From a virus, in the IMG/VR virus record IMGVR_UViG_3300042894_002964, positions 1 through 40,095 of that record: DNA of 40,095 bases, one strand, 5' to 3'. This document shows positions 13,246 through 23,037 of this stretch, piece by piece; the first letter of the stretch is position 1, and the number at the start of each line of letters is the position of its first letter. The notes under the pieces were generated by a model, which worked only from the letters and a program-made list of their open reading frames with translations, did not search any database and was not told the DNA's origin. A program made the position numbers and the translations under genes.

Positions 13246-13411
13246 CATTTATGTGTCATCGTGCCTGCCATTAGTTAAATATACACAAAAGCAACAGAAC
13301 GATGTTGCGGACGCAATGGACGCACAACCCAACGCTGCGTGGGTGCAAATGATTAATGATTATGGTAAATTACGCAAGCAAGCAAGGGCTGCATGTGGTG
13401 AAGATATTTAG
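13184..13411 (+). CDS. Outer-membrane spanin lipoprotein (Rz1-like)
   Basis: A 75-residue protein starting at ATG 13184 inside the Rz-like gene in another frame. The N-terminus is a short lipoprotein signal ending in the lipobox V-I-A-C, so Cys15 would be lipidated. The mature part has CLPLVKYTQKQQNDVADAM, like the C-PLVEYT-type opening of many phage o-spanins. It pairs with the upstream i-spanin. The frame can be read back to 13097, but the signal peptide fixes the start. Confidence 0.75.
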   Translation: MKLVMLVMMMCVIACEKTSSNIYVSSCLPLVKYTQKQQNDVADAMDAQPNAAWVQMINDYGKLRKQARAACGEDI

Positions 13412-13469: not shown

Positions 13470-13546
13470 TGGTCAGAGTGGTAGGATTTGAACCTACAAC
13501 GCTAGCTTCCAAAGCCAGAAGATTAACCAGATTTTCCCACACTCTG
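13470..13546 (-). tRNA. tRNA-Pro (UGG)
   Basis: Leftward gene with encoded CCA end. The acceptor stem CAGAGTG/CACTCTG pairs fully, with C1-G72 and A73 as expected for proline tRNA. The T arm is GTAGG-TTCAAAT-CCTAC, and the anticodon arm is CTGGC-TTTGGAA-GCTAG, giving anticodon UGG at 13511-13509. The D stem is short (about three pairs), and position 37 is A where proline tRNAs usually have G. It lies one base after the Met tRNA and is transcribed with it. Confidence 0.8.
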
Positions 13547-13547
13547 A

Positions 13548-13622
13548 TGGTGGCGGTAGTTGGATTTGCACCAACGACCTTTTGGTTATGAGCCAAACGA
13601 GCTACTGCTGCTCTATACCGCT
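13548..13622 (-). tRNA. tRNA-Met (CAU), initiator-like
   Basis: Leftward gene with encoded CCA. The D arm GAGC-AGCAGTA-GCTC, anticodon arm TTTGG-CTCATAA-CCAAA and variable loop AGGTC closely follow bacterial initiator tRNA. Initiator features present: no Watson-Crick pair at 1-72 (A1 opposite C72), the A11-U24 pair, and G-C pairs at 30-40 and 31-39 (the third, 29-41, is U-A). Odd features: a D loop two bases shorter than in E. coli fMet tRNA, and T loop TGCAAAT with G at position 55. An isoleucine (lysidine) reading of CAU is possible but the initiator D arm argues against it. Confidence 0.8.
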
Positions 13623-13707
13623 AAAAATTGTGATTAACTCATCTAGCTCATTAATCACGGTCAGGGACGCACGCTAGAATGGATTGCAATTAGCCTTGTA
13701 GAAAATC

Positions 13708-13735
13708 ATTATAGCTAAAATATTTTATTATGCAA
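13708..13735 (-). promoter_or_regulatory. Leftward promoter for the tRNA pair
   Basis: Read leftward: TTGCAT (13735-13730), a 16-base spacer, then TATAAT (13713-13708). This is a good sigma70-type match. It lies just beyond the leftward terminator and about 85 bases before the Met tRNA, so the tRNAs appear to have their own transcription unit. Confidence 0.65.
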
Positions 13736-13774
13736 CAAAAAAACCCCCACAATCGCAAATAACGAAAGCGGGGG
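13736..13774 (-). terminator. Intrinsic terminator of the leftward early operon
   Basis: Read leftward: CCCCC (13774-13770), an inner partly paired loop with TCG/CGA, GGGGG (13748-13744), then a run of seven T. This is a rho-independent terminator ending the operon whose last gene stops at 14036. Confidence 0.8.
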
Positions 13775-13874
13775 AGTAACACTTGACGCTAACCGACCGC
13801 AAAAAACAATCTAAAATTAGCGTAATTCAGGATATAGGCACATTTGCAACTGTGTTATTCCTATAGAGCCTATT

Positions 13875-14031
13875 AGCGATTGCGTTCCTAGTTTATATAA
13901 ATATAAAACTTGCACAGTATAACTGCCGTTTCAGTTCTCAATCTTTTTCAAGGAGCGATTGCGTTCCTAGTTTATATAAATATAAAACTTGCACAGTATA
14001 ACTGCCGTTTCAGTTCTCAATCTTTTTCAAG
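13875..14031. repeat. Perfect 79-bp tandem duplication
   Basis: Bases 13875-13952 and 13954-14031 are identical over 78 positions, separated by one G. Each unit contains an AT-rich imperfect palindrome (AGTTTATATAAATATAAAACT region), a small palindrome CAGTATAACTG, and GATTG...CAATC complementary segments. The pair lies between the stop of the last early gene (14036) and its terminator, so it would be in the 3' untranslated RNA. No coding frame is evident. The rest of 13623-13874 holds only the promoter and terminator. Confidence 0.9.
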
Positions 14032-14035
14032 TGTA

Positions 14036-14584
14036 TTATAAACCATTTTGGCGGGGTTGACAATATGGTTTTTGGTTGCTTTTATATTTATCAATATTTG
14101 TCAGATGCGGTTTGAACTCCAAAACCCAAACATAGGGGTTTGAAAGCCATGAGCCTGCACCATTGATAGAGTTCCATAAATCTCTATACCAAGTTATAGG
14201 GTTTGCGCCGTGTTGTATATTTGGGAATGGGCAGCCTTCCGCCATACAATCACCACGTGTAATATCCTGCAACCGCTCCACCTTAATATCAGTGATTTCC
14301 AGTGTAATTCGTGATGCGCTACGAGGCATAAATATTGATGGCTTCCATGGCAATTTTTTACAGAGCAACTCATTTTTCAAAATAAAATCATTTTCTGCAT
14401 TATCAGCTTTATAGGTTGTTGAAAATCGGGCATCTTGACAAAATGTTTCCCGCACCCACAATAAATCACCAATTTTGCCATAGGGGCATATCTCGCTTTT
14501 TTTAATTCGCCTTGTTTGAGTTTTCTGCCCCACAAGCAACGCCTGAACCATTGGGGTTGAAAACAATATTGGTTTATCTTTCAT
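14036..14584 (-). CDS. ASCH-domain-like phage protein
   Basis: A 182-residue protein. The start chosen is ATG 14584, which overlaps the upstream stop as ATGA; an in-frame codon at 14614 is less likely. The opening KPILFSTPMVQALLVGQKTQ followed by TRRI, then YGKIGDLLWVRETF, EITDIKVERLQDIT and SINGAGSWLSNPYVWVLEF, is the pattern of a widespread phage family related to ASCH domains (often listed as a morphogenetic protein). ASCH folds bind RNA or modified nucleotides; the role in phage is not settled. It is the last gene of the leftward early operon. Confidence 0.75.
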   Translation of the reverse strand: MKDKPILFSTPMVQALLVGQKTQTRRIKKSEICPYGKIGDLLWVRETFCQDARFSTTYKADNAENDFILKNELLCKKLPWKPSIFMPRSASRITLEITDIKVERLQDITRGDCMAEGCPFPNIQHGANPITWYRDLWNSINGAGSWLSNPYVWVLEFKPHLTNIDKYKSNQKPYCQPRQNGL

Positions 14585-20651: not shown

Positions 20652-21551
20652 TTATATTAGTGTTTCTTGCGTCATACGCTCTATTGTCGCTGGTTGCTCG
20701 GTGAACATATCAGCTTGCCTGTAAGCGTCCTCAATTCTTTTGCAACCAATGTTGAAGTATTCCTCATTAAGTTCTATTCCTATGAACTTGCGCCCCTCTT
20801 TAACGCATGCAACTCCAGTGCTAAAACTTCCTGCAAATGGGTCTAATATTGTTTGGTTTTGCTCACTTAGTAATAATATCAAGCGTGACATTAATTTAAT
20901 TGGTTTTGCGGTTGGGTGCGTATCAATTCCCCTTGACTTATCTACATCTGGCGTGAAACACCAAACATTAGTGATGTTGCAATTATCCTGATAGTGAGGG
21001 CGGGGTTTATCGCCTTTTATATATAAATATTCTTTTGTTTTGGGTTTGCCAATAGTTAATTTAACTCCAAAGCCTCCGTTTTGTTTTTCAGATAACGCTC
21101 TTTTTAAGCCATCAATATACTCAGGCATTGCATAAAGCAATTCAGCTTTATCGCTATATGGCATTTTAGTTTCAAAATATTTTGGCTTGCCTTTTTTATT
21201 TATCATTATGCTTTCATGACTACGTAAAATTGGTTGCATAATTGCGCCCACCCTACGTTTTACCCAACTTATATGGTCGCTATATTTGAATAATTTATTA
21301 ACTTCATTTTGCCAATCAATCAAAGTTGGCATCTGCCCAAAGTAAGCAAACCAAGCATCACTAGGCAATATGTTGTAAATATTATCAAGCACTTTCGGAA
21401 TATCTAACGTTTTATCCCATTCGCTTAAGTTTATTAAGTAAGGGGGATCAGTGATTACGCAATTAATTTTACCCAAAGTCGGCATCACTTCCAAGCAATC
21501 TCCTAATATTAACACGCAATCGCCTATTGTAACTTTTTTCTTATGTGTCAT
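20652..21551 (-). CDS. DNA methyltransferase (N6-adenine/N4-cytosine type, beta class)
   Basis: A 299-residue protein. The catalytic motif D35-P-P-Y38 lies near the N-terminus, and the AdoMet-binding motif (DPFAGSFSTGVA, about residue 236) near the C-terminus, the order of beta-class methyltransferases. THPTAKP precedes the latter, as in this class. It has no nuclease partner in the window, so it is an orphan enzyme, probably protecting phage DNA from host restriction or marking it. It is the last gene of the recombination/ATP-grasp operon, joined by ATGA. The target sequence cannot be read from the protein. Confidence 0.88.
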   Translation of the reverse strand: MTHKKKVTIGDCVLILGDCLEVMPTLGKINCVITDPPYLINLSEWDKTLDIPKVLDNIYNILPSDAWFAYFGQMPTLIDWQNEVNKLFKYSDHISWVKRRVGAIMQPILRSHESIMINKKGKPKYFETKMPYSDKAELLYAMPEYIDGLKRALSEKQNGGFGVKLTIGKPKTKEYLYIKGDKPRPHYQDNCNITNVWCFTPDVDKSRGIDTHPTAKPIKLMSRLILLLSEQNQTILDPFAGSFSTGVACVKEGRKFIGIELNEEYFNIGCKRIEDAYRQADMFTEQPATIERMTQETLI

Positions 21552-22336
21552 GATTTCATAATCTCTGGCAAAATGTTAATTGGGTGGTTGCCATAAAGCC
21601 CATAATTGCGGGTTGAGTTCACTTCTACAATGCTTGGCTTATCATCTATAAAACACAAATCTAGCACATATTCGGTTAATTCTGGCAATTCGTTCGTAAA
21701 ATCTTTGCATATTTGTTCGGCTGCATCAATCAATCTATCATCACATTGGTAATATTTTACGCAATCTTTATTGTTTAATGGCTTTATTTTTGCTTCAATC
21801 ATTGAACCACTAACAACTTTTTGATTAATCACAATAAACCTTGTTTCATCTTTAATTTCAACATAATCATAAATTAATACATCATTTGATTGATATTCTA
21901 AAAAATATCCTATTCCTTCCCAAATAGCTTCTTTATCTTGAGCATCACAATCAAATCTGAAACTTTCTTTAGATTGCGCTTGGTTTTTAATAAAAACTTT
22001 ATCACTAAACTTTGATGCAGCTTTAATAACTCCAACAACTCCTTGCTCATATCCAACAATCGCATAATTACGATTTAACCATTTACGATAAGATATTGTT
22101 CTTGGTAAATCCACCTGCGAAAGATTGATGCTTTTAGCATCTGGGTATATTGCACGTTTGAAAAAATCATTTCTTTTGAAGCCATTGCCAATAAATATTG
22201 CGGGTTCATATTCGTTGATATGTTTATGCACCCGCACATCTAAACCAAGTTCATAAGCTGCTGCTATCCAATAATGACTTTCAAGCATATGCTCTAAATC
22301 ATTATCATTGCGGGGCAGGTAATAAATATTTGTCAT
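21548..22336 (-). CDS. ATP-grasp protein (R2K-clade / former DUF4343 type)
   Basis: A 262-residue protein. ATP-grasp signs: K117 in KVFIK and K123 in QSKESF (nucleotide-binding strand), YVEIKDETRF with E164/R166, D226 in YVLDLCFID, and E238-V-N240 (metal-binding), followed by GLYGNHP. The N-terminal 90 residues form an alpha/beta substrate-side domain. ATP-grasp enzymes join a carboxylate, via acyl phosphate, to an amine or thiol. The likely class modifies proteins or peptides. It is coupled by ATGA on both sides to a CDC123-like gene and a methyltransferase. The substrate is unknown. Confidence 0.75.
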   Translation of the reverse strand: MTNIYYLPRNDNDLEHMLESHYWIAAAYELGLDVRVHKHINEYEPAIFIGNGFKRNDFFKRAIYPDAKSINLSQVDLPRTISYRKWLNRNYAIVGYEQGVVGVIKAASKFSDKVFIKNQAQSKESFRFDCDAQDKEAIWEGIGYFLEYQSNDVLIYDYVEIKDETRFIVINQKVVSGSMIEAKIKPLNNKDCVKYYQCDDRLIDAAEQICKDFTNELPELTEYVLDLCFIDDKPSIVEVNSTRNYGLYGNHPINILPEIMKS

Positions 22337-23037
22337 TTACTCACCTTATCCATTACGTTATATCTAAAAGTGACCTCGCTGCCGTCCATAGCGTTTAATT
22401 CATCATAAGTGAATAAGCAAGGGTCTGATAACCCATAAGGATTAAGCTCAAGCAGTCCTTTATCATAAATATCTTCGCCATAAACAATATCCATGACAAT
22501 ATCTTGCATTGGCAAATGTGACAAATATTGGTTTGCAAACGCAATAATTTTTTCTTTATTTGGCGCAAAATTATTAAAACCAATATTGTAAAAATATTGT
22601 GATATGGCAATTAATTTACCATCTTTTACATAGCAACGCCATTCATTTTGCGGTGGAATATAAACCCATGGCAAGATATGTAATTGTAATTGTGTGCCAT
22701 TTTGCATTGCTTTGTCTAAATCATCAAATATACGCATAGAGCAACCACCTAATGCGTCTTGTATATCTTCAATACGCTTCATTGGATATATTTCACCAAG
22801 CGAATTTGAAAAATAATCTTTTGGGGAGCGAGTTGATAATTTTGCAAAAAACCAACCAGAATAAAAACCCGTTAATGCTTGTTGTATTTTATTACAAATG
22901 TCTTCAGGTAACTCAATTCCATCACCTTTAATCCATGGTTCAATTTCAAGTGGTATGCTTAAAATTGGCTTTGCAATCAGCGCATTATATAGCTCTTTTG
23001 GCATATTTTCTATTGCACATTTCATTACGTCTTTCAT
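22333..23037 (-). CDS. CDC123-like ATP-grasp protein
   Basis: A 234-residue protein, much shorter than human CDC123. Matching family elements: FAKLSTRSPKD (K66, R70, K73), EWRCYVKDGKLIAISQYF (R134; the eukaryotic form is EFRCFVK...LIGISQR), D183 in VMDIVY, and E197-L-N-P-Y-G with LFTYDEL, matching DFNPFG...LFTWEEL. These are the ATP and Mg-binding positions. Eukaryotic CDC123 helps assemble translation factor eIF2; bacterial and phage members are predicted to modify proteins. ATGA coupling to RusA and to a second ATP-grasp gene suggests the two act on one pathway. Confidence 0.85.
   Translation of the reverse strand: MKDVMKCAIENMPKELYNALIAKPILSIPLEIEPWIKGDGIELPEDICNKIQQALTGFYSGWFFAKLSTRSPKDYFSNSLGEIYPMKRIEDIQDALGGCSMRIFDDLDKAMQNGTQLQLHILPWVYIPPQNEWRCYVKDGKLIAISQYFYNIGFNNFAPNKEKIIAFANQYLSHLPMQDIVMDIVYGEDIYDKGLLELNPYGLSDPCLFTYDELNAMDGSEVTFRYNVMDKVSK

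Follow-up and report, generated by a model that had tools for sequence, protein, structure and literature searches.

A phage-encoded initiator-type tRNA-Met with A18 and G55 in place of the canonical elbow bases

A virus record of 40,095 bases carrying phage structural, lysis and replication genes, analysed here at its full length (the window), encodes an initiator-type tRNA-Met in which the canonical G18 and U55 of the tRNA elbow are replaced by A18 and G55. This matched exchange recurs in other phage tRNAs as well as in cellular bacterial initiators, and we consider it probable that the window tRNA works as a phage initiator, with A18-G55 as an alternative contact in the elbow, and starts translation in infection. 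The kind of tRNA itself, a phage initiator-type tRNA, is already known. As far as our searches go, however, there is no description of A18/G55 tRNAs as a natural class, of the strict coupling within it or of their status as the apparently sole initiator of some bacteria.

The tRNA gene and its neighborhood

ARAGORN called the gene as tRNA-Met(cat), with the 5' end of the tRNA at 13622 and the 3' end at 13548, which agrees with the coordinates of an earlier sequence-only reading and places the gene on the minus strand (Table 1). In Sprinzl order, the tRNA reads AGCGGTA TA GAGC AGCAGTA GCTC G TTTGG CTCATAA CCAAA AGGTC GTTGG TGCAAAT CCAAC TACCGCC ACCA, and all of its stems are intact, as judged from the sequence and from model alignment. 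The features that had been listed in the sequence-only reading are all present, namely A1 opposite C72, A11:U24, U29-A41, a D loop of 7 bases (9 in E. coli), A18 and G55. While the canonical G18 with U55 is absent, the remaining elbow bases G19, C56, U54 and A58 are all kept. One base downstream on the same strand follows a tRNA-Pro(UGG) gene, the D and T loops of which are ordinary.

Table 1. Features of the tRNA region of the window. Positions are those of the window.
Feature	Position	Strand	Basis
Initiator-type tRNA-Met(CAU) gene, CCA encoded	13548..13622	-	ARAGORN; Rfam RF00005, 63.2 bits; own models R1 (86.4 bits), R3 (96.7 bits) and elongator R2 (64.9 bits)
7-base D loop AGCAGUA, A18 = 13606	13603..13609	-	sequence; identical D loop in 12 viral loci
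T loop UGCAAAU, G55 = 13569	13564..13570	-	sequence; identical T loop with CAU tRNA in 41 viral loci
Anticodon arm UUUGG-CUCAUAA-CCAAA; U-A at 29-41, G-C at 30-40 and 31-39	13581..13597	-	sequence
D arm with A11:U24 (initiator and formylation determinant, PMC7949028)	13599..13613	-	sequence
Neighboring tRNA-Pro(UGG), G18/U55-type loops, CCA encoded	13470..13546	-	ARAGORN; Rfam, 56 bits
Possible promoter of the tRNA pair, TTGCAT, 16 bases, TATAAT	13707..13739 (approximate)	-	by eye; weak first hexamer; absent from consensus scan
Terminator-like hairpin with U-rich tail, downstream of tRNA-Pro	13291..13308	-	consensus scan; weak, count equals chance expectation

To one side of the tRNA pair are late genes pointing rightward, and to the other are genes pointing leftward. 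The TATAAT of the possible promoter is found about 85 bases upstream of tRNA-Met, and a better promoter-like site, with 11 of 12 matches in the consensus scan, is located farther upstream at 14063-14035; in the same scan, the numbers of promoter-like and terminator-like sites around the tRNA region do not exceed chance. On its downstream side, this site is followed by an exact tandem duplication of 78 bases (13875-13952 and 13954-14031) and by a strong terminator-like hairpin with seven T. The minus-strand region 13735-14063 is without a clear ORF and possibly gives rise to a separate short noncoding transcript upstream of the tRNAs.

Initiator identity

In order to classify the tRNA, we built two covariance models without any sequence of the window, the first on 44 initiator-type tRNAs of viruses, all with normal loops, and the second on 21 elongators with a CAU anticodon. 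The window tRNA scored 86.4 bits with the initiator model versus 64.9 bits with the elongator model, and 96.7 bits with R3, a model of the A18/G55 class that was likewise built without the window. On the initiator model, patescibacterial initiators (see below) reached 84-92 bits, compared to at most 77 bits for the other tRNAs of those genomes. The features that a review associates with formylation are an unpaired 1-72 end, G2:C71, C3:G70 and A11:U24 (PMC7949028), and all of them are present in the sequence of the window tRNA, where A1 opposite C72 leaves 1-72 without a Watson-Crick pair. A11:U24 was furthermore found in all 52 members of set A3. Three consecutive G-C pairs at 29-41, 30-40 and 31-39 were not found, the corresponding pairs being U-A, G-C and G-C. 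However, all three are scarce even among ordinary viral initiators (25 of 108 with G18/U55), and this feature is therefore not defining in the phage setting.

A CAU anticodon is common to initiators, elongator tRNA-Met and tRNA-Ile2 (with a lysidine-modified CAU), and the missing first G-C pair of the initiator anticodon stem would fit an elongator Met or Ile2 identity. Yet the initiator model is ahead by 21.5 bits, A11:U24 is a purine-pyrimidine combination and thus the opposite of elongators, which have a pyrimidine at 11 and a purine at 24, and 1-72 is unpaired rather than paired. We dropped this identity on the model scores and regard it as highly improbable; the comparison of models on which the sequence-only reading had let the initiator identity depend supports that identity. 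By its sequence, the window tRNA is of the initiator type, and it is filed as such and not as a proven fMet initiator.

In comparison to E. coli tRNA-fMet (metY/metZ), 59 of 77 aligned columns are the same, and the likeness extends to A11:U24, the CUCAUAA anticodon loop, the AGGUC variable loop and the unpaired 1-72. The E. coli tRNA differs in having C1/A72, G18 and U55, whereas the window tRNA has A1/C72, A18 and G55 as well as U29-A41 and a 7-base D loop. Ordinary phage initiator-type CAU tRNAs, such as those of crAss-like cr60_1, Mycobacterium phages Myrna and PegLeg, Caulobacter phage CcrColossus and Pseudanabaena phage Pan5, differ from it by U55 in all cases and by G18 where the D loop is shown. 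A18/G55 is shared by the CAU tRNAs of EBPR siphovirus 2 and Phage CBW1004C-Prop1; however, both have the anticodon loop UUCAUAC, and the former has C11:G24.

Most of the traits for which the window tRNA had been called unusual turned out to be frequent among the 108 viral initiators with G18/U55. A U-A pair at 29-41 followed by two G-C pairs was found in 20 of them, a 7-base D loop in 23 and A1/C72 in 6. Within the viral A18/G55 initiators, U-A/G-C/G-C is even the commonest combination (18/43), and among 39 parsed A18/G55 initiators from bacterial genomes, 3 have all three G-C pairs. U29-A41, the 1-72 mismatch and the short D loop were consequently dropped as special traits on the grounds of their frequency in phage initiators, and it is the combination of A18 with G55 that remains remarkable.

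Coupling of positions 18 and 55

The sequence-only reading had suspected that the contact between positions 18 and 55 may have co-varied. This co-variation is real and far above chance, as seen in selected samples, in non-CAU tRNAs and in tree contrasts. Viral contigs were scanned in three ways, two of which yield biased samples, selected for the G55 T loop or for the A18 D loop, while the third is neutral to positions 18 and 55. The scan for the G55 T loop together with a CAU anticodon loop left the D loop free and returned 41 viral loci; A18 was found in 29 of the 30 distinct parsed initiators chosen in this way, and in the remaining one (L035, D loop AGTATTA), position 18 is ambiguous. Conversely, the scan for the A18 D loop with a free T loop returned 12 viral loci, all 12 of which have G55. 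The swap was absent from all 101 distinct viral initiators of the neutral scan, and A18/G55 is therefore rare.

Among the ARAGORN calls in the fetched loci, the non-CAU tRNAs provide a sample that was not selected for base 18 or 55. They comprise 455 tRNAs with G18/U55, 25 with A18/G55, at most 1 (doubtful) with A18/U55 and none with G18/G55 (Fisher p 7e-41, with tRNAs counted without correction for relatedness). The 25 A18/G55 tRNAs represent about 17 anticodons from 8 loci. Two phage tRNA arrays hold many swapped tRNAs: in L053 (1-2381, part of a 225 kb phage), 7 of 8 non-CAU tRNAs carry the swap, and in L178 (1-9138), it is found in 10 of 33.

A tree of 174 initiators was calculated with the D and T loops left out; having only 50 columns, it is weak by itself. 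All 7 supported independent contrasts at position 18 also change at position 55 (sign test p 0.016); the whole tree holds 47 contrasts, supported or not. The coupling is clearly broken in one case, the initiator of a Chthoniobacter assembly (L189), which has G18/G55. L205, with the D loop AGCCAGGTA, looks like another exception but is readable as A18, and U18/G55 was observed in two tRNA-His.

In the A18/G55 initiator class, 99.3% of stem cells are paired, and 239 double-sided changes compare to 62 in shuffles. Judged by these stems, the class is evidently under selection as tRNA. Besides these initiators, four A18/G55 CAU tRNAs (L188, L196, L044 and L251) are otherwise initiator-like but carry C11:G24, so that one determinant of formylation would be weakened.

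The swap in Patescibacteria

Initiators of some Patescibacteria, which are bacteria with tiny genomes (Saccharibacteria, Kaiserbacteria, Kerfeldbacteria and others), share A18/G55 and the 7-base D loop with the window tRNA; they differ in being cellular genes and in having mostly C/A, A/A or C/U at 1-72. In 24 patescibacterial genomes, mostly metagenome assemblies, of which 18 had been picked by G55 and 6 by A18 in the initiator, the A18/G55 tRNA was in every case the single initiator-grade match. While a missed second initiator is conceivable in individual genomes, it is not plausible in all 24. With the sole initiator-grade tRNA of these genomes carrying A18/G55, the swap is probably functional, and it seems compatible with initiation. 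In a spread sample, the A18 pattern was found in 7 of 286 Patescibacteria.

TruB was detected in 14 of the 24 genomes with an A18 initiator versus 15 of 20 controls without one (p 0.34), and loss of TruB as a cause of the swap in Patescibacteria is therefore unsupported. At four patescibacterial loci (L209, L217, L225 and L233), the swap affects a CAU tRNA of the elongator type (GCUC AGGUAGUUA GAGC, T loop UGCAAAU) and not the adjacent initiator, which retains G18/U55. This adjacency indicates that the swap arises tRNA by tRNA.

Genome, relatives and host

When set against a related contig, the window proves to be a linear excerpt from a genome that is circular or permuted; about 1.2 kb of that genome is absent at the junction of ends 1 and 40095. 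The terminase is nearest to those of phages of Moraxella and other gammaproteobacteria (about 40% identity), the capsid to those of alphaproteobacterial phages (30% identity) and the helicase to those of Caulobacter and cyanobacterial phages. A patescibacterial host, as might be suggested by the shared swap, was dropped, since the swap occurs in many kinds of phage contigs and in 7 of 286 Patescibacteria, and since the nearest terminases are those of gammaproteobacterial phages.

Three near relatives were identified by terminase; their contigs stop short of the tRNA region from both sides and do not cover it. In a distant relative, L006, an A18/G55 initiator tRNA is encoded directly upstream of the terminase gene. 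Initiator-type tRNA genes adjoin the terminase large-subunit gene in L249, L290, L291 and L296 as well, and the phages with this arrangement include unrelated ones (crAss-like cr60_1, three Mesyanzhinovviridae and L006). Elsewhere in the window, two adjacent ATP-grasp-type proteins are encoded on the minus strand beside a DNA methylase (21548-22336 and 22333-23037), with R2K_2 (PF18299) and D123-family (PF07065, 62.9 bits) domains. ATP-grasp-type ligases are unusual in a phage.

Discussion

Suppressor tRNAs from randomized D and T loops, selected in vivo in E. coli, were reportedly described by Doyon, Zagryadskaya, Chen and Steinberg (J Mol Biol 2004), and are said to follow a 'specific purine trap' rule in which G55 goes with A18 and U55 with G18. 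The rule attributed to that work is the same as the one found here, but those tRNAs were artificial elongator suppressors and not natural initiators; in the literature that we searched, no description of A18-G55 or of a purine trap in natural tRNAs was found. In the ordinary elbow, base 18 is inserted between bases 57 and 58 of the T loop and touches base 55, the exposed pair on the outside is G19-C56, and pseudouridine 55 has been called universally conserved (PMC4810234). Furthermore, a study cited in that review (Pan 2006) links, by its title, the 18-55 pair in the P site to rapid translocation.

In the window tRNA, the contact between the D and T loops would be switched from G18-U(psi)55 to a matched A18-G55. 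An A at position 18 instead of G would require another partner at position 55, and G is the one observed. From their co-variation, A18 and G55 may be proposed to form a base pair in the folded tRNA, the geometry of which we infer. With U54-A58 and G19-C56 retained, the elbow would be kept and, with it, the L shape and the behavior in the ribosomal P site. We propose that the tRNA would be made, charged with Met, formylated and used alongside or instead of the host initiator, and its most likely role may be that of an extra initiator when phage mRNA floods the cell.

The swap also removes the sites for pseudouridine 55 (TruB) and 2'-O-methyl-G18 (TrmH), as by established chemistry neither G55 can be converted to pseudouridine nor A18 to Gm18. 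It could thus be adaptive by putting the tRNA out of reach of host enzymes that recognize the elbow or modify it, be it TruB, TrmH or a defence that cuts or modifies tRNA and is directed at the initiator, so that the phage initiator would survive when that of the host is disabled. Besides the closure of both bases to modification, the recurrence of the swap in phage tRNAs of many specificities (7/8 and 10/33 non-CAU tRNAs in L053 and L178) is consistent with this explanation, and escape from tRNA-cutting defences has been proposed for phage tRNAs (PMC10264068). However, the escape changes proposed there affect the anticodon loop, and this loop is unaltered in the window tRNA; the swap also occurs in cellular bacterial initiators, most of which are accompanied by TruB (see above), and the adjoining tRNA-Pro is without it. 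Moreover, we know of no defence that reads the elbow. We therefore consider evasion of such enzymes an unlikely explanation. A similarly low probability is assigned to a broader proposition, according to which the swap would be a repeatedly evolved alternative elbow that keeps the shape without pseudouridine 55 and Gm18 and escapes host control there; phages would employ it in their initiator and some large ones in a great part of their tRNAs.

Replacement of a host tRNA that is cut or depleted, as put forward in the sequence-only reading, is possible. The anticodon loop, where known nucleases cut, is without an escape change; phage tRNAs in general have been proposed to evade defences that disable host initiator tRNA by means of changes in this loop, and phages tend not to encode tRNA-fMet where a nuclease targets its anticodon (PMC10264068).

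The same reading had considered a diverged initiator that biases start-codon selection. Two G-C pairs instead of three could indeed relax selection in the P site, given the role of the three pairs (PMC7949028), and thereby tilt the choice of start codon, or the fidelity of initiation, in favor of phage mRNAs. Yet the anticodon loop is the standard CUCAUAA, the change at 29-41 is usual in phage initiators, and with all three pairs in just 25 of the 108 ordinary viral initiators, the trait is not tied to the window tRNA. The proposal was therefore not upheld; altered start-codon choice appears unlikely from these bases, and such a shift has very little to recommend it as an account of the tRNA. 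Finally, a decaying or non-functional gene with loop changes due to drift might explain the short D loop and the changes at two normally near-invariant positions, but we dropped this reading as most improbable, since the stems are intact, CCA is encoded and the changes are the exact matched pair of dozens of other tRNAs, whereas drift would leave unmatched changes.

We thus favor a functional phage initiator whose elbow is held by an alternative contact of A18 with G55. Bases 18 and 55 are commonly described as forming an invariant contact, and the class described here is a natural one in which both bases are changed, including in apparently sole cellular initiators. It opens a test of whether the pair itself or the modified bases are what the ribosome and the fold need, and it likewise opens to direct test the question of whether a phage gains anything from the swap.
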